The notes below the pieces were generated by a model. It saw only the letters and a program-made list of their open reading frames with translations, was not told the DNA's origin and ran no database searches. Shown here piece after piece: positions 30,670 through 38,230 of a stretch of DNA of 64,000 bases. Position 1 is the stretch's first letter, and every line of letters begins with the position of its first letter. The translations under genes and the position numbers were made by a program. This stretch comes from Fimbriimonadaceae bacterium (lineage in GTDB: Bacteria > Armatimonadota > Fimbriimonadia > Fimbriimonadales > Fimbriimonadaceae), in the NCBI GenBank assembly GCA_019638675.1, contig JAHBTE010000001.1:2264605-2328604 (forward strand), given 5' to 3'.

Positions 30670-31422
30670 TCAGGGTGTGAGTGAACTGGTAGCCGCGCCG
30701 TCATTTCGAGCCTCTTGAATCAATCGCCCCAGGGCCACCATGCGCTTATCTGCATGGTATTCCATGATTTCTTTTAGGAGGTACGCAGTCTCAACTGCTC
30801 TTCTAAACTTAGGTGGAGGTTCATCAACTTCAGATAGTTTGCTTAAGCCTAAGAGAACCTCGATATCTACCCAAATGACTTGGCCGCCTATCGTGTCAGC
30901 GTCATCAACTGGGCCACCAACTGCAAGATCGAACGGAACTGGTGTTTTAGTAAGCTTTTCACCCGTTGTCATGCAGATCAACCATTCTGGGGCAAGACCT
31001 TCTTCTTGCAAAAGCTTATTGAGTCCCCATACCAAAACGGGCCAAATATCTTCAGCGGACTCTAATCCTCGCATGACTTGAACCGAGAGTTCAAATATTT
31101 CTGGGGCAGGAGCTCCGAACGGAACAAAACTGCGGATCGTATCGCACCAAGCAATTCCCGCCATCATGCTTTCGTAATTAGTGCGAAGACCAGGAAAGCT
31201 GGTGATTGGGGCGCAGTGCTTCAAAAAACTTCGATGCCGACCCGCTTCCCAGGTGAACTTAGCGTAAACCATAAGCTCGCTCGCACCTGCGAGGCGGCTT
31301 CCCCCTTTTCGGGAGCCTTTAGCAACGACATCCACCAATCCTAGGGTATCGGATAAAAGAATCAGACGCCGATCATTTTCACCGGCGTCTGAACGATGCA
31401 CTACAAGTGCGGGAGCAGTTAT
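30670..31422 (-). CDS. recO: DNA repair protein RecO
   Basis: A RecO homologue. The N-terminal OB-fold signature VVHRSDAGENDRRLILLSD and AKGSRKGG are followed by a helical domain. RecO loads RecA on single-stranded DNA with RecF and RecR. The first strand of the OB fold (TAPALVVHRS) lies upstream of the only ordinary start, a GTG at 31401, and no ATG, GTG or TTG exists upstream in frame as far as I read (to 31440). An ATA at 31422 sits where the start should be, so I give that as the likely end; the GTG at 31401 is the conservative option. The Cys4 zinc site of many RecO proteins is absent. Confidence 0.8.
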   Translation of the reverse strand: MTAPALVVHRSDAGENDRRLILLSDTLGLVDVVAKGSRKGGSRLAGASELMVYAKFTWEAGRHRSFLKHCAPITSFPGLRTNYESMMAGIAWCDTIRSFVPFGAPAPEIFELSVQVMRGLESAEDIWPVLVWGLNKLLQEEGLAPEWLICMTTGEKLTKTPVPFDLAVGGPVDDADTIGGQVIWVDIEVLLGLSKLSEVDEPPPKFRRAVETAYLLKEIMEYHADKRMVALGRLIQEARNDGAATSSLTP

Positions 31423-31435
31423 CTCTGCCGTGGCT

Positions 31436-32221
31436 TTACACCCTCTGCGTGAGGGTTTGCACCCACTCGTTCACGATAAAGCTCATTCGGTCGATAACCA
31501 ACGCAAACCGTGCCATAACCGTGCTTCCGAAGATTGCACCGAAACCAACCATCAGCATCCAGCGGCCAAGCTTGTTCACGCCAAGCATGAACTTGTTCTT
31601 AAGTTCAAAGCTGAATATGAAGTAGCTAAACGCAGAGATAAACGTGACAACAAAGATCAAGTTCGTCAACGCTTGGGTTGGGTAGAGGTTGTTGGCTAAC
31701 TGTTGCTGAACACTGGCAAGTTGAGCTGGATCAGCAATGGTTTGCACCTGACCGTTAGCAACCTCAAGAGTTGATGGTCGCGACATTGGTGAAAATGTCG
31801 TCGGAATCACCGGCTGCATTGAGCTATAGACCTGCGGACCCCACGTTTGCCACCAAACTTGAACCTGTTGACCAGACCACAACCCGAGGATGATTCCGAT
31901 TGGAATCTTGCTCATCCAGTTATGTTTTTTGCTGAACACCATGTAGCCCATGATCCCAATCGGGAGCAGAGCCGCCCAAATCCAGTGACCGGGGGTAGCA
32001 GGAGCGGTTGGAGTCGCTGCCATACCAAAGGTGTACACCCACCAGTCGGTATAAAGGGTGTCCTTCCAAGCGGCAACCACGCCGTACCCAGCTGCGAGTC
32101 CAAGGAACAAGTGCTCCCAGAATCGGTAGAACTTGGTTTCCTTGTACAGCACGCTGTAAAGGCCAATGGTGGCTAAAACCCCAGCCGAGATTTTAATGAT
32201 CGCAAATGTCTGCGGATTCAT
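31436..32221 (-). CDS. Multi-pass membrane protein, last of the six-gene unknown operon
   Basis: A 261-residue integral membrane protein with about six hydrophobic segments (roughly 9-25, 35-51, 81-98, 103-120, 183-203 and 215-240) and a polar extracytoplasmic loop between the fourth and fifth (residues 125-180). The start overlaps the previous stop by one base (TAATG). I do not recognise a family. It is followed after a short gap by recO. Its place at the end of an overlapping run suggests a membrane subunit of one complex. Confidence 0.85.
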   Translation of the reverse strand: MNPQTFAIIKISAGVLATIGLYSVLYKETKFYRFWEHLFLGLAAGYGVVAAWKDTLYTDWWVYTFGMAATPTAPATPGHWIWAALLPIGIMGYMVFSKKHNWMSKIPIGIILGLWSGQQVQVWWQTWGPQVYSSMQPVIPTTFSPMSRPSTLEVANGQVQTIADPAQLASVQQQLANNLYPTQALTNLIFVVTFISAFSYFIFSFELKNKFMLGVNKLGRWMLMVGFGAIFGSTVMARFALVIDRMSFIVNEWVQTLTQRV

Positions 32222-33174
32222 TATTCACCCCCCTTGCGAGTCGCTCTTCGGCTCATAAACATTCCAACGTTTCCGAGAATGACGGCGAGTATGAGGAGCA
32301 CAAGCGCAACGTGTAGTGTTCCGTAGTATTGATTTCCACGGGCAAATGTTTTGCCTTCTGCAACTTTGTCAACGCTCGAAGTCTTGGCCCAAGTTACTTT
32401 CGGCCGCTCGTCTCCATTAGAGATGTTGATTCCGTTCGCCATGAGGTACTCGGTGTCGTAAACGCCTTTCAATCCAATGGCAATTCCCTTGACTTGACCA
32501 GATTGATAGAACGGCAGAACGCCAGGGCCTGTAACCCCGGTGACCATTGCCGTGATCGGTACCTTGTTGGCAAGTCGCTGAATAGCGATATCAATTGATG
32601 CAGAAGCGGTGACGACAACCATCATCTTGCAGTCGCCAATCTTTCTAATGTCTTTCAATACATCGGTCTTGAAGATGTCAACTTCCCCGCCTTCTGGAAC
32701 CTTTGAAGTTCGGTTTGCCCAAGCTTGACGGAGGTCGGTTCCCATGTTGGTGTTGGTTGCCTCTGCGTTTGCAAAGTAACCAAGGTCAAGGTAATCCTTG
32801 CCAACTTGGTAAACGTAGAGCCCTTCAGCTTTCCGTTCAGCATTGATACGTGTGATAACCGTTCGCGCAACTTGCGGAGCGACTGGGTCAGCGGCTGAGT
32901 AGAACACAAACTTGAGTTTTTGGCTCATTAGCAGACGCATGAGGTTTTCGAAGTGCCCCATGCTTTCGCCGCGTGTACTATTCGTCCAGTCTGTTTGGAC
33001 AAGCACGGTACTACCTTCGGGAATCGCCATGACAGTTGCGTAAAAGTCTTTACTGCTTGGATCAGGCTCAACCGGAATCTTAACGGGGATGAATAATCCC
33101 GTACAAACGAACACGACCAGAATCACATAAAGAATGCGACGGTCTACTTTTTGCATCTTGTCCCAGAATGTCAC
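32221..33174 (-). CDS. Membrane-anchored alpha/beta protein of the six-gene unknown operon
   Basis: A 317-residue protein with hydrophobic helices at both ends (about residues 13-32 and 287-306). The intervening 250 residues alternate predicted strands and helices like a Rossmann-type domain (KLKFVFYSAADPVAPQVAR, KMMVVVTASASIDIAIQRL), presumably outside the cytoplasm. It begins at GTG, overlapping the upstream stop, with a strong AAGGAGG site 9 bases before it. I know no family for it. Its layout resembles a tethered solute-binding or sensor module. Confidence 0.85.
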   Translation of the reverse strand: MTFWDKMQKVDRRILYVILVVFVCTGLFIPVKIPVEPDPSSKDFYATVMAIPEGSTVLVQTDWTNSTRGESMGHFENLMRLLMSQKLKFVFYSAADPVAPQVARTVITRINAERKAEGLYVYQVGKDYLDLGYFANAEATNTNMGTDLRQAWANRTSKVPEGGEVDIFKTDVLKDIRKIGDCKMMVVVTASASIDIAIQRLANKVPITAMVTGVTGPGVLPFYQSGQVKGIAIGLKGVYDTEYLMANGINISNGDERPKVTWAKTSSVDKVAEGKTFARGNQYYGTLHVALVLLILAVILGNVGMFMSRRATRKGGE

Positions 33175-34097
33175 GACGATACTCCTCCTTTTTCTAATCC
33201 GAGCCAGAGCCGCAAGCCCATGGCAAGTGCGCCTAAGAAGACTCCAAAGTCAATTGCACGGATTGCAGGAATCTGCATTGTGCTTCGTAGCCAGTCGGCC
33301 ATTACGTTGAGCTTAAAGTTCATGAAGAACGGATTACCAGTCTGTACGACCAAGCTTTCTATGCCAGTTCCCCAAGCGTAAGTCAATGCCCCCATCAGGT
33401 TCAGCATCAGGATGAGAGCTGACGCCATCATAACCGTTGCTTCTACACTGCGGATGCGGAATGCTCGGTAGGCGGCAGATAGAATGAAGAACGCGATCAT
33501 GGAGAACATCGCGGAGTCCATCTGCTGGTACATCCCTTCAAACATCAAGTCGTTTGCGTATTGGAAGAATCCCCAGTTGCTTGGTTCGTTCAGCAATCCG
33601 TTGTCATCCATGAACTTGCGTTGTCGCCAGTCCATAAATCCGACAGTGGTCATCAACGCAAAGCAAACCAATAGAACTGTGCTGAATCCCCAGTTTTCCG
33701 ACTTGCGACGGACTTTAGTGATGTGAACTCGGACGAGTGAGAAGATTCCGACCCCGAGCAGAAACGCTTGAAGAACGTTTGTAATCTTCCCGACCGGGTC
33801 AATCGCCTGGTTAATCGTAAACCCGATTTGCTCCGACAGGTTCCGCGGAACGTCGTTCTGCAAATCAGCCCCAATGGGTTTTGGCCAGAGATAAGCCAAA
33901 ACGTAAGGCAAACCAGCTAAAAACGTGAATCCAACGATGATCCATCGCCGAAGGTTGGATGGTACTTGGGTGAAGGCAAACAGCAGGGCTATCCCGAGCA
34001 AGAGCCCGATAACAACCCAGATCACCAACCCTTGACCGGGAAGTTTTCGCCAAAAGTTTTCTGTATTTTGGGCTAGCAGAAAAATAGTATTGTTCAT
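33171..34097 (-). CDS. Multi-pass membrane protein of the six-gene unknown operon
   Basis: A 308-residue protein with about seven hydrophobic helices (including VIWVVIGLLLGIALLFAF and TVLLVCFALMTTVGFMDW) separated by a basic cytoplasmic loop (VHITKVRRKSE). ATGA overlap with the upstream gene and GTGA overlap with the downstream one indicate translational coupling. No transporter signature is recognisable. It is probably the core membrane component of the complex. Confidence 0.85.
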   Translation of the reverse strand: MNNTIFLLAQNTENFWRKLPGQGLVIWVVIGLLLGIALLFAFTQVPSNLRRWIIVGFTFLAGLPYVLAYLWPKPIGADLQNDVPRNLSEQIGFTINQAIDPVGKITNVLQAFLLGVGIFSLVRVHITKVRRKSENWGFSTVLLVCFALMTTVGFMDWRQRKFMDDNGLLNEPSNWGFFQYANDLMFEGMYQQMDSAMFSMIAFFILSAAYRAFRIRSVEATVMMASALILMLNLMGALTYAWGTGIESLVVQTGNPFFMNFKLNVMADWLRSTMQIPAIRAIDFGVFLGALAMGLRLWLGLEKGGVSS

Positions 34098-35077
34098 TCT
34101 CCACCACCTCCAGTTTCAGCTTCTGGCTCTGCCGGTTTCTTTTCACGTTCAATTGTCACTAATTCTTCTGGAGTGTAAGGGTTAAAGAAGCGATTGACCA
34201 TCGTATCGCTTTTCTTGACCCGTTCCGGAGTAACCGTTCCATCTGGGCCAGCTTCAACTGGAGTCATCGAACTCACGCCTTGGTTGTCGGTTCGGTGTTC
34301 GGTGGTCATTCCAGTCATTTCGTAAGAGCCAAAAAGGGTTCCGAAAATAACCATTCCAGCGATCACGATTTTTGCCCAATCTTGACCGACCAACGATCCA
34401 ACCAGAACCGGTTGTCGTGTGAGATATGCAGATGCGGCATAGAATTCGTCACCAATCAAAACGTAGTCGCAGGCGGCGATAAAGAACGGTGTTTGGGTGG
34501 ACTGGGTTGAACCAGCCACCTGAATCGCGCCAATAGCGTTTGATGTTTCTGCAAAAATCAGCGATTCTGCGTAAAACGCACCAAGCAGGAAGGTCGCCGC
34601 GACTTTTTCGCGGTGGATGATCCCGCTGACCCCGGCCGCAAACGCAAACTGTTGGTCAGAAATAAATTGAACTGTTTCTGGAGTGAACTTATCCCCGACA
34701 CCCTGTTGAGTGTAAACGTCTCGGATGACTTCTTGCGCAACTGCGAAAACCGGAGCATTAGCACAGCAAATGCGAACCGGAGTTGCAAACTGAGCGGCAG
34801 TCTTAGTGACTTGGGCAAAGATGTTAATCGCCTGCACGGAAATCGCATCCAAAACCCCGATACCGGGAACCATCAAAACCGGGCGCCCCATTTCGGTTGC
34901 CCGACCAATTGCATCGTCAATTGCGTTCAAACCCGAAATACGGCGGATAAACAGCGAGTCAGCATTTTTGTTTGCCCGGCGGATATTGACCAGAATAAAC
35001 GTAACCACCATGAGCGTTACGGCTATCCCGATCCAGCCGGTGTCAAGATACTGTTCGCCCTGCAACCAGTTAAACAT
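34094..35077 (-). CDS. DUF6754-like membrane protein of the six-gene unknown operon
   Basis: A 327-residue protein with an N-terminal helix (residues 13-30), an alpha/beta domain starting GLNAIDDAIGRATEMGRPVL and a second hydrophobic helix near residues 236-256, then an acidic, low-complexity tail ending EAETGGGGE. The ..IDDAIGRATEMGRP.L pattern resembles, from memory, the DUF6754 family; this is not verified. The gene shares one base with the preceding stop (TGATG). The likely role is a structural or substrate-facing subunit of the same complex. Confidence 0.8.
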   Translation of the reverse strand: MFNWLQGEQYLDTGWIGIAVTLMVVTFILVNIRRANKNADSLFIRRISGLNAIDDAIGRATEMGRPVLMVPGIGVLDAISVQAINIFAQVTKTAAQFATPVRICCANAPVFAVAQEVIRDVYTQQGVGDKFTPETVQFISDQQFAFAAGVSGIIHREKVAATFLLGAFYAESLIFAETSNAIGAIQVAGSTQSTQTPFFIAACDYVLIGDEFYAASAYLTRQPVLVGSLVGQDWAKIVIAGMVIFGTLFGSYEMTGMTTEHRTDNQGVSSMTPVEAGPDGTVTPERVKKSDTMVNRFFNPYTPEELVTIEREKKPAEPEAETGGGGE

Positions 35078-35436
35078 CAGTTTGATTCCTCGTCATCATT
35101 ACTTGTCACTTCGGAACTATCGTTCCTTAAACTTTTCTGTTCATCAGGCTTGATTGGCTCAGTCGGATCCTCTAGTGAGCGAATCAGCTTTTCAACTGAT
35201 TTCATGTTCCCAAATAGTCGCCCGTAATCTTGCCAATTGCCCAACCCCACCAAAGATCCAAAAAACGGCGTCGTGGCGATCGCTGCATTCCCAGCAATCC
35301 CCGCCAGAGGTTTGTGCATCTCCAGAAAGAAGACGACCGGAACCTCCAGTTTTCGTCGCTTAACTTCGTATGTCAGTTTCGCGATCAACCGATCCTCCTC
35401 TTCAGGAGTGAGTTTCTCTGCCCACGTCGCTTCCAT
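35077..35436 (-). CDS. Small protein with a conserved LEMHKPL motif, six-gene unknown operon
   Basis: A 119-residue protein. A charged N-terminal helix is followed by VPVVFFLEMHKPLAGIAGNA, a moderately hydrophobic stretch that could be a peripheral membrane helix, then a segment ending SVEKLIRSLED and an acidic tail. I chose the ATG at 35436 (GAGGA upstream) rather than the TTG at 35445; both overlap the upstream gene. I do not know a family name. It may be a cytoplasmic adaptor. Confidence 0.7.
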   Translation of the reverse strand: MEATWAEKLTPEEEDRLIAKLTYEVKRRKLEVPVVFFLEMHKPLAGIAGNAAIATTPFFGSLVGLGNWQDYGRLFGNMKSVEKLIRSLEDPTEPIKPDEQKSLRNDSSEVTSNDDEESN

Positions 35437-35917
35437 ATTCCTCAATGAGTTCGGCTATTTTGCCCAATACTTCGTCTCGGTTGCCACTAAATCTCAAGTA
35501 AACGCCCCGAAATGCGTCTAAACGGGAGTTTTTCTCTAACGGAGAAAGCCGAACCCCGTCTGGCATATCAATCAGACGCTTAACATTATCCCAACGAATC
35601 GCTGTGACATTAAAACCGCAGTGGGAGCGGGCTTCCTCGTTATTTAACTGATAATTCACAGGCATAAACAGCTCGGCGGTAGAAGCTACCATAACAACAA
35701 CGCCGACTAATGCTCCGAGAATTCCGCCAATAAACATATATCCCACAACCGCCACGATCATCGTGATTATCGCTACAGCTAAGCGTTTTTGCGGCATTTG
35801 GCTGCCGATGTTCACTTTCCAGCTCAGCGGCTCGATAGCCGCTGAAGCAGTTTCCTGAGTGGGTTCGTCTGCCAAACCGTTATCGCCAGTCGTTGAAGAG
35901 GCTGCTAATGGATTCAT
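35402..35917 (-). CDS. Two-helix membrane protein with a PH-like C-terminal domain, six-gene unknown operon
   Basis: A 171-residue protein with a polar, S/T/A-rich N-terminus (1-40), two hydrophobic helices (about 45-63 and 65-84) and a C-terminal domain containing WDNVKRLIDMPDGVRLSPL and RLDAFRGVYLRF, which looks like a bacterial PH-like fold. The assigned ATG overlaps the end of prs by 38 bases; a GTG at 35815 is a shorter alternative. It is the first of six overlapping membrane-associated genes. Confidence 0.7.
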   Translation of the reverse strand: MNPLAASSTTGDNGLADEPTQETASAAIEPLSWKVNIGSQMPQKRLAVAIITMIVAVVGYMFIGGILGALVGVVVMVASTAELFMPVNYQLNNEEARSHCGFNVTAIRWDNVKRLIDMPDGVRLSPLEKNSRLDAFRGVYLRFSGNRDEVLGKIAELIEEYGSDVGRETHS

Positions 35918-36845
35918 TTAAGTGAATCCGGCGGATTGCTTCGCCCAGCAATGGAGCACTTGGCAAAACGGTCAGCTTTGGAAACTGCTTTTCACTGCCG
36001 AGCGGAATAGTATCCATCGTCACAACCTTGCTGACTACGGAATCTTGCAATCGTTGAGCCGCGTTACCGCTGAACACCGGGTGGGTGCAGCAACACATAA
36101 CTTCAGTTGCGCCTCGTTTCATGAGTTGTTCTGCACCCATGATGATTGAGCCGCCTGTATCAATCATGTCGTCAATCATGATGCAGCGCTTGCCTTCGAC
36201 ATCGCCGATGATTTCAACGATGTCCACCTTGTTTGGTTCAGGTCGCCGTTTGGCGATGATCGCAATAGGCGCTTTCAGCATTTCAGCCAAGCTACGGGCG
36301 CGAGGCACCCCGGCAACGTCTGGGCTGACAACCACAACGTCATCCATTTCCGCAAAGCCCTCGCCTTGGAAGTACCGACCAAGAATCGGCCCGCCATAAA
36401 GGTGATCAACTGGAAGATCAAAGAAACCTTGGATTTGCTCAGCGTGCAGATCAACGCAAACCACCCGGTGCGCGCCTGCGGTACCGATCAAATCTGCAAC
36501 CAATCGCGCGGTGACAGGTTCGCGTGGCTTGATCTTCTTATCCTGGCGAGCGTAGCCGTAGTACGGCATGACAACCGTCAGTCGGCGGGCGCTGGCTCGG
36601 CGGAATGCATCCAGCATGATCAACAGTTCCATTAAAGAATCGTTGACCGGAGCGCAGGTGGGCTGAATAATAAATACGTCGTTGCCGCGAGAGCTCACCT
36701 CAACCATTAGCCGGATTTCGCCATCACTGAATCGGGTGGAAGTCAGGCCGCTGAGTTCGATTCCCAGGTAATCGGCGACTTTCTGACCAAGCTCTTTGTG
36801 AGAGTTACCCGCAAACAGTTTCATTCCACTCAAATCTGAACTCAT
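35880..36845 (-). CDS. prs: Ribose-phosphate pyrophosphokinase (PRPP synthetase)
   Basis: A 321-residue class I PRPP synthetase that makes PRPP from ribose-5-phosphate and ATP. The metal-binding VCVDLHAEQIQGFFDLPVDH, flexible-loop KRRPEPN and PRPP loop IMIDDMIDTGGS are intact. I placed the start at the ATG (36845) that overlaps the glmU stop as ATGA; the longer frame runs 14 codons into glmU. It sits between glmU and the unknown membrane operon, all on the same strand with overlaps. Confidence 0.95.
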   Translation of the reverse strand: MSSDLSGMKLFAGNSHKELGQKVADYLGIELSGLTSTRFSDGEIRLMVEVSSRGNDVFIIQPTCAPVNDSLMELLIMLDAFRRASARRLTVVMPYYGYARQDKKIKPREPVTARLVADLIGTAGAHRVVCVDLHAEQIQGFFDLPVDHLYGGPILGRYFQGEGFAEMDDVVVVSPDVAGVPRARSLAEMLKAPIAIIAKRRPEPNKVDIVEIIGDVEGKRCIMIDDMIDTGGSIIMGAEQLMKRGATEVMCCCTHPVFSGNAAQRLQDSVVSKVVTMDTIPLGSEKQFPKLTVLPSAPLLGEAIRRIHLNESISSLFNDWR

Positions 36846-38230
36846 TTTTTCTCCGATCCCTTCGCTGCGCGCCAAACTGTGTACCACTGCTCTTTATTCT
36901 CCTGCCTGCCACGACCGATTGCCATTGCTCCGCTGGGAACGCCTTTTGTGATCACGCTTCCAGCGGCTACAAACGAACCGTCCTCTATCTTAACAGGTGC
37001 AACCAGCGTAGAGTTTGATCCCACAAAACAATCACTCCCAATTTCTGTGTGAAACTTGTGGAAACCATCGTAATTGCAGGTAATCACGCCCGCACCGATA
37101 TTTGTGTTGGAGCCAATGCTCGCATCACCAATGTAGGTCAGGTGGCTGATGCTTGTGTTTGGCCCAATGGCGGCGTTCTTGATTTCAACGAAATTGCCAA
37201 TCTTCGTACTTGGCTTGAGGTGAGCTTGGGGCCGGAGATTTGCGAACGGGCCACAACGAGAACCTTCCTCCATTGTTGCTTGATCCAGGTGACTCATAAA
37301 TGCTCGGCATCGGTTGCCAATAGTTGAACTCTTCACCCAAGTATTCGGACCGATCTCACTGTTCGCTCCAATCGTGGTTTTGCCTTCCAAGACAGTATTA
37401 GGGTGAATCACCGAGTCTTGACCAATTGTCACATCAGGGCCGATCGAGATAGAACCTGGGTCAATAATCGTGACGCCGTTTTGGGAATGCCGCTGAAGAA
37501 TGCGCTCCCTTACAATTTGCCCGGCCTGAGAGAGTTGCCACCGGTCATTGATTCCTCTAAATTCATCCGCGTCTTTGCTCGTGAAACTCGAAATCTTGCC
37601 GCCTTCGTTCGCAACCATTTCGATCAAATCGGGAAGATAGTATTCGCCTTGCGCGTTGTTGTTTTTGACCTGAGGAAGAAGCTCGAATAACTTGGGGCCG
37701 CTGAAACAGTAAACGGCAGGATTGATTTCTTTAATGCTTAGTTGCTCAGGCGAGCAATCTTTGTGTTCTCGGTTACCAATAATCGCGCCTGATTCGTTTC
37801 GCAGTATTCGCCCATAACCAGTCGGGTCATCCAGTGTGCAAGTGGCAAGCGTGAGTTCAGCTGAATCGCCTTCATGGATTTTAAGAATTGAACTGATTGT
37901 TTCCGTGCTGAGCATCGGCACATCACCCGCTAGAACCATCACTGGGCCTGACCAATCTTTCAGCGCTGATTCTGCTGACCGAACAGCATGAGCGGTTCCG
38001 AGTTGTTCGCTTTGCACCGCGTATTCAACAAAATCGCCAAGAACTGCGCGAACGTGATCAGCTCCGTGTCCGACCACAACAACGATTCGCTCGACTCCAG
38101 CTTCTACCAAGGCGCGGCGCACCCATTCCACCATCGGAACTCCACAAACAGAATGGACAACTTTCGGCAGGTCGCTTTTCATGCGAGTTCCCTGCCCGGC
38201 GGCCAAAATTATTGCGGCTGGCTTATTCAT
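36842..38230 (-). CDS. glmU: Bifunctional GlmU: N-acetylglucosamine-1-phosphate uridyltransferase / glucosamine-1-phosphate acetyltransferase
   Basis: A 462-residue enzyme making UDP-GlcNAc for peptidoglycan and lipopolysaccharide. The N-terminal pyrophosphorylase signature LAAGQGTRMKSDLPKVVH and the C-terminal left-handed beta-helix hexapeptide repeats (VTIGQDSVIHPNTVLEG) are clear. I chose the ATG at 38230 (MNKPAAIILAAG) rather than a TTG 6 bases upstream. It is divergent from upp and is followed by prs, a pairing common in Firmicutes and other phyla. Confidence 0.95.
   Translation of the reverse strand: MNKPAAIILAAGQGTRMKSDLPKVVHSVCGVPMVEWVRRALVEAGVERIVVVVGHGADHVRAVLGDFVEYAVQSEQLGTAHAVRSAESALKDWSGPVMVLAGDVPMLSTETISSILKIHEGDSAELTLATCTLDDPTGYGRILRNESGAIIGNREHKDCSPEQLSIKEINPAVYCFSGPKLFELLPQVKNNNAQGEYYLPDLIEMVANEGGKISSFTSKDADEFRGINDRWQLSQAGQIVRERILQRHSQNGVTIIDPGSISIGPDVTIGQDSVIHPNTVLEGKTTIGANSEIGPNTWVKSSTIGNRCRAFMSHLDQATMEEGSRCGPFANLRPQAHLKPSTKIGNFVEIKNAAIGPNTSISHLTYIGDASIGSNTNIGAGVITCNYDGFHKFHTEIGSDCFVGSNSTLVAPVKIEDGSFVAAGSVITKGVPSGAMAIGRGRQENKEQWYTVWRAAKGSEKK

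Follow-up and report, generated by a model that had tools for sequence, protein, structure and literature searches.

Two named protein families bear on the genes considered here. The MutL ATPases (PF13941) include GlmL, which is thought to repair or load a cofactor enzyme, and DUF6754 (PF20539) is a family without described function. Both are represented in a gene set of which six members lie in one stretch of 64,000 nucleotides (nt) from an Armatimonadota genome of the Fimbriimonadaceae (GenBank assembly GCA_019638675.1, contig JAHBTE010000001.1, positions 2,264,605 to 2,328,604), hereafter called the window. The six genes, labelled A1, B2, C3, D4, E5 and F6, are found on the minus strand at 31436-35917, between prs and recO. 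A previous sequence-only reading, made without database searches, had treated them as a six-gene unit. This description falls short, as the unit comprises eight families, the remaining two of which, the ATPase MutL and a barrel-sandwich protein termed U387, are encoded outside the window.

That these eight families form a shared unit is well supported by family assignments, gene order, co-retention, gene fusion, motifs and topology. With slightly better than even confidence, we take the products of the six genes to make up the membrane half of an ATPase-linked inner-membrane complex with eight components. An old, undescribed membrane-protein operon is supported, and the module, whose genes are retained in several phyla that have received little study, probably builds an ATP-powered inner-membrane machine.

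An eight-family unit shared across phyla

The gene neighbourhoods of the best 80 relatives of C3 in a collection of genome contigs were examined. The window DUF6754 protein is 96% identical to its counterpart in CP075366.1, and most of the nearer relatives, from Fimbriimonadia, display the order prs-A1-B2-C3-D4-E5-F6-recO, often with all eight of these genes. In most of the remaining Armatimonadota among the 80 the six genes are kept and prs and recO do not adjoin them. The block C3-D4-E5-F6 is intact in Fermentibacterota (a name used here for records entitled Fermentibacteria, Aegiribacteria and Hyd24-12), Coatesbacteria and Poribacteria (including L079, L081 and L141). The same families thus co-occur in order in Armatimonadota and Fermentibacterota, and four of them also in the two other phyla, as the sequence-only reading had proposed. 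Its view that the locus is not a recent import likewise agrees with this cross-phylum gene order and with the plasmids and viral contigs searched, in which the module was not found.

The two further components came to light in Fermentibacterota, where two extra genes between B2 and C3 encode a GlmL-type MutL ATPase (PF13941) and the unnamed protein U387 of ~372 amino acids (aa). The complete operon A1-B2-MutL-U387-C3-D4-E5-F6 occurs both there (L076, L078) and in Armatimonadota (L104, L105, L106, L107; two extra open reading frames (ORFs) lie between B2 and MutL in L106), and a permuted version with MutL-U387 following F6 is found in Armatimonadota L109 and L110. Moreover, U387 and DUF6754 lie within ~5 kb of each other on one contig in roughly 30 Armatimonadota genomes from about ten families. 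In the genome of the window, MutL (G000:C1:2641584-2643056, plus strand) and U387 (G000:C1:449668-450783, minus strand) are both encoded away from the six genes. Since eight-gene operons exist in other Armatimonadota, the arrangement in Fimbriimonadia seems to have arisen secondarily, by the splitting of an eight-gene unit.

Presence and co-retention of the module outside Armatimonadota are seen not only in the Fermentibacterota operons but also in Poribacteria, where in most genomes the genes lie in separate places and yet are retained: DUF6754 in 40/40 genomes, U387 in 38/40, MutL in 38/40 (above the cut-off), A1 in 19/20 and B2 in 18/20. Partial operons persist in this phylum, namely A1-B2-MutL-U387 in L138 and L139 and U387-C3-D4-E5-F6 in L141. 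Retention after dispersal is stronger evidence of a shared function than gene overlaps. It also refutes a chance association of unrelated genes within Armatimonadota operons, a notion that could appeal to the position of the cassette in the housekeeping string glmU-prs-...-recO and that is dismissed as nearly inconceivable given the ordered families in other phyla, their persistence when scattered, and a gene fusion.

Among 201 Armatimonadota, DUF6754 is present in 173 genomes and U387 in 182; both are present in 171, both are absent from 17, and 13 are discordant. For genomes with a completeness of >=90% and a contamination of <=5% these numbers become 128 with both and 10 with neither, with 3 and 0 in the two discordant classes. 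As the absences are spread over several families (f1/g15, f6, f9, f11, f14, f20, f24), more than one loss of the module in this phylum is likely. MutL was scanned in 61 genomes, and the 6 without any match are all devoid of DUF6754 and U387 as well. DUF6754 is further present in 40/40 Fermentibacterota, with 1-4 matches each, and absent from all 14 well-known control genomes. Two genomes of a single genus in the window's own family (G181 and G185; 1.5 Mb, 97% complete) lack DUF6754 and U387; they are natural knock-outs, useful for finding the role of the module.

A GlmL-like ATPase and its probable barrel-sandwich partner

MutL is a clear member of PF13941 within the ASKHA superfamily (E=1e-127, 427 bits versus a cut-off of 27). 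The copy in the window's genome carries the ATP motifs DCGSTTTK, DIGGATTD and GSGG; across 18 MutL sequences phosphate-1 (D-x-GSTTTK) and phosphate-2 (D-[IM]-GGATTD) are intact in all, and GxGG in 17. Its nearest NCBIfam relatives are GlmL (E=3e-67) and Or-4 (E=5e-63), both matched below their equivalog cut-offs; in all, the protein stays under three NCBIfam cut-offs (227.3 versus 475, 213.2 versus 600 and 185.1 versus 204.05 bits). Scores below the GlmL and Or-4 cut-offs place the MutL of this module in a separate GlmL-like subfamily.

In U387, the copy from the same genome contains a barrel-sandwich domain (Biotin_lipoyl, 29.1 bits versus 22.1). The middle and C-terminal part is conserved, with the motifs GVAITGxE, TEGFG and NGATQIRAGVxRPE and a final segment containing VPRANVE. 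In four Fermentibacterota genomes (L115, L143, L144, L145), MutL and U387 are joined at a second, diverged locus in a single open frame of 920-938 codons, which keeps the ATP motifs as well as the U387 hallmark RAGVxRP. Such a fusion points to direct contact between the two proteins.

The Fermentibacterota also harbour a second, diverged C3-D4-E5-F6 operon (L115, L116, L142-L149), which suggests paralogous complexes with another role. In L115 this operon adjoins transketolase halves and a D-2-hydroxyacid dehydrogenase, and an additional lone C3 paralogue is located a few kb from the second operon in L115, L116 and L142-L147.

Topology and conserved features of the proposed membrane half

Among the six genes of the window, only C3 belongs to a named family. 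C3 (34094..35077, minus strand; 327 aa) was described in the sequence-only reading as DUF6754-like and is an outright member of PF20539 (E=3.6e-89, 298.7 bits against a curated cut-off of 27). The other five have no convincing match in Pfam, NCBIfam, PADLOC or, by profile searches, PDB sequences; such PDB searches with C3, D4, E5 and F6 returned chance matches or nothing. The earlier statement that no known complex is involved holds for these four resources and for the literature searched. Neither did any of the eight proteins match PADLOC models at E<=0.01, and an anti-phage defence system was rejected.

Family-averaged hydropathy predicts two transmembrane helices (TM) for A1, the arrangement TM-domain-TM for C3 and E5, seven TM for D4 and six for F6, in agreement with what had been read from the single sequences. 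A1 (35402..35917, minus strand; 171 aa) would thus form a two-helix hairpin followed by a C-terminal cytoplasmic domain resembling bacterial PH domains; bPH_6 matched weakly in 5/66 members (best E 0.0011), which fits the PH-like tail noted before. B2 (35077..35436, minus strand; 119 aa), with its LEMHKPL motif, is probably peripheral or partly membrane-embedded; its ATG start is at 35436, and a TTG at 35445 is possible too. D4 (33171..34097, minus strand; 308 aa) and F6 (31436..32221, minus strand; 261 aa) are polytopic proteins without known family. Invariant residues are R211, R214, F213 and G285 in D4 and E36, R238 and Y200 in F6. Homology between D4 and F6 was considered and rejected, with a profile comparison giving 1.5%.

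The orientation of C3 can be deduced from its relatives. In other phyla and classes, a signal peptide, recognised by eye, and an fn3-type domain (27.6 bits versus a Pfam cut-off of 25 in the L104 relative) precede TM1, and in C3 the residues that follow TM1 are strongly basic, in line with the positive-inside rule. For these reasons the DUF6754 domain is cytoplasmic; the weak extra hydrophobic segments of C3 fall within this folded domain. In E5 (32221..33174, minus strand; 317 aa; no known family), in contrast, basic residues precede TM1 and follow TM2, which places its domain outside. Of the two external alpha/beta subunits originally envisaged, E5 therefore stands and C3 moves to the inner face. 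Two tandem E5-type genes lie between D4 and F6 at L108:10807-12648, a possible external-subunit heterodimer. Compared with other Armatimonadota, L053, L054 and L055 have far longer C3 and D4 frames (~580 and ~400 codons); the DUF6754 match of L053 starts near residue 300, and the preceding part is without Pfam family match.

AlphaFold2 models of C3 (pLDDT 87.1) and E5 (pLDDT 95.3, pTM 0.91) both display a Rossmann-like domain. A profile comparison of the two families gives a 7.8% probability of homology, and yet both models match the same PDB entries. The invariant residues of C3 (G166, A170, E171; Q186, Q195; D204, Y205, E211) are found where strands 4-6 end on their C-terminal side or just past that point, at the edge where Rossmann-like folds usually bind ligands. 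In E5, conserved residues cluster around strands 5 and 6 and in the segment following strand 1, a loop and helix with the motif SDWTxSTRGES. In the models these clusters may be regarded as putative binding sites.

A possible mechanism and its competitors

How might the eight proteins work together? In the scheme we favour they would physically assemble, with a cytoplasmic half made of the GlmL/MutL-type ASKHA ATPase and barrel-sandwich U387, a membrane core of D4 and F6, and E5, A1 and small B2 as the other membrane parts. The Rossmann-like domain of C3 would offer a natural dock for U387 and MutL. MutL would bind and hydrolyse ATP and thereby power the complex, and U387 would relay the change to C3. 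E5 would recognise a substrate on the outside, which C3, D4 and F6 would move through the inner membrane or extract from it. The work done on this cargo can only be guessed at; transport or flipping comes to mind because an ATPase is combined with 13 helices in the core and with domains on either side of the membrane, which makes a transporter or flippase our first guess. Pushed further, and quite tentatively, the module could represent a primary active membrane machine of a new class, in which an actin/Hsp70-like ATPase of the ASKHA type acts through a barrel-sandwich linker on a membrane core that bears a Rossmann-like domain on each face. It would serve as a housekeeping transporter or flippase in several little-known phyla.

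Several points weigh against this scheme. No component matches a known transporter, and transport is guessed at from the architecture. To our knowledge, no ASKHA ATPase drives a transporter, and those relatives of MutL that bear names serve as accessory proteins to amino-acid mutases and in ornithine degradation. In addition, the test for co-occurrence of DUF6754 and U387 in the 201 Armatimonadota (Fisher p=1.6e-15) ignores phylogeny, and U387 is present without DUF6754 in 11 genomes, 8 of which are less than 90% complete.

The competitor that survives best is an envelope sensing or scaffolding complex without transport, in which E5 reads a signal or ligand outside and relays it to C3, U387 and MutL inside. 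The presence of Rossmann-like domains on both membrane faces would suit such a function, as would the resemblance of the C3 domain to the RCK gating domains of channels, among many other folds (Z ~10). However, a pure sensor would not usually have two polytopic proteins with 13 helices between them, and the operons contain no additional gene family that recurs consistently. We regard this alternative as rather unlikely. A K+ channel with an RCK gate had also been considered, given TTVGFMD in D4, one weak Ion_trans_2 member and the RCK-like fold of C3, and was rejected because the family as a whole does not conserve the filter motif.

The closeness of MutL to GlmL and Or-4 raises the slightly less likely prospect of a membrane-bound chaperone or reactivase, in which MutL, in the manner proposed for GlmL, would repair a cofactor enzyme or load it, and the membrane proteins would serve to anchor or sense MutL. 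Four conserved membrane proteins, however, exceed the needs of an anchor. Furthermore, no B12 mutase subunit was seen among those neighbours that were annotated, and Rfam searches of the window and of seven operon loci returned no family, cobalamin riboswitches included.

Finally, an Rnf/Nqr-like ion pump driven by redox reactions would cast U387 as NqrA or RnfC and D4 and F6 as membrane subunits. The NqrA_N/RnfC_N/Biotin_lipoyl barrel-sandwich signal in U387 or the MutL::U387 fusion (NqrA_N 27.6 bits versus 25 in L143) invites this comparison, and the number of membrane subunits and their helix count are loosely alike. Nevertheless we judge it improbable: a screen of the six window families revealed no cluster-binding cysteine pattern, the sole cysteine conserved at >=85% being C203 of C3; D4, E5 and F6 have no Pfam, NCBIfam or PDB-sequence match to Rnf/Nqr subunits, nor did Pfam relate any of the 75 D4 or 71 F6 members to RnfA/D/E or NqrB/D/E; and an ATPase would be superfluous. 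The ATPase-linked complex remains the reading we prefer.

Gene layout and neighbourhood in the window

All six ORFs, their coordinates and their overlaps were confirmed. A1 overlaps prs by 38 nt and B2 by 35 nt, and the following junctions are B2/C3 (1 nt, TGATG), C3/D4 (4 nt, ATGA), D4/E5 (4 nt, GTGA) and E5/F6 (1 nt, TAATG). Stoichiometric assembly had been read from this coupling, but overlaps alone do not demonstrate it. The chain extends upstream, where glmU and prs (35880..36887, minus strand; ribose-phosphate diphosphokinase, E=2e-133) overlap by 46 nt; recO (30670..31401, minus strand; TIGR00613, E=1e-17) lies 34 nt downstream of F6. The string glmU-prs-A1-B2-C3-D4-E5-F6-recO is nearly continuous, with overlaps at all junctions except the last.

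Neighbours differ elsewhere. Directly downstream of F6, L076, L078 and L069 have a TonB-dependent receptor-like gene, matched by Pfam in L076, or an ORF of about that size, and gcvPA and gcvPB are directly upstream of A1 in L076. A record entitled Methanoregulaceae archaeon (L035, JADZEW010000008.1) carries a 16.9 kb stretch that shows the Fimbriimonadaceae order Prs-A1-B2-C3-D4-E5-F6-RecO with gene coordinates almost identical to those of L033, and is probably a mis-binned bacterial contig.

Comparison with known systems

Nearly all sampled Armatimonadota, Fermentibacterota (most of which have more than one DUF6754 copy) and Poribacteria carry this gene set, for which no function is described. 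Such a distribution suggests a core process of the envelope that is absent from model bacteria or carried out by them in another way. Its definition by eight families makes the module testable. If MutL indeed powers the complex, ASKHA ATPases would gain a function that they are not known to have.

We know of no system that matches the assembly of these eight families. DUF6754 and PF13941 were not mentioned in the literature searched, which excluded most subscription papers and all bioRxiv preprints, so that a published description is possible. With the glutamate mutase accessory protein GlmL/MutL (PF13941, TIGR01319, NF040745) and ornithine Or-4 (NF040744), the module shares PF13941 membership and intact ASKHA ATP motifs. 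However, its MutL is longer (~590-650 aa) with a C-terminal part of its own, and its partners are membrane proteins and U387 rather than B12 mutases. The likeness to Na+-NQR and Rnf consists of the barrel-sandwich hybrid domain of U387 and MutL::U387, shared with NqrA and the N-terminal domain of RnfC, whereas no homologous membrane subunits and, in the six window families screened, no cofactor residues were found. The C3 and E5 domains align at Z ~7-11 with DHS-like NAD/FAD-binding and RCK folds (carbon monoxide dehydrogenase epsilon subunit, transhydrogenase domain III, Sir2, MthK RCK; neighbours include 1kjn, 9c0q/9c0r, 1ma3, 2aef and 1pno). At 2-14% identity and with no Foldseek match at E<=0.001, this similarity is confined to the generic fold level. 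For DUF6754, of which C3 is a clear member, partners and a topology are given here. As judged from the sequences, the combination and its membrane core are new, and the named parts come from known superfamilies: an ASKHA ATPase, a barrel-sandwich protein, Rossmann-like domains and a bacterial PH domain.

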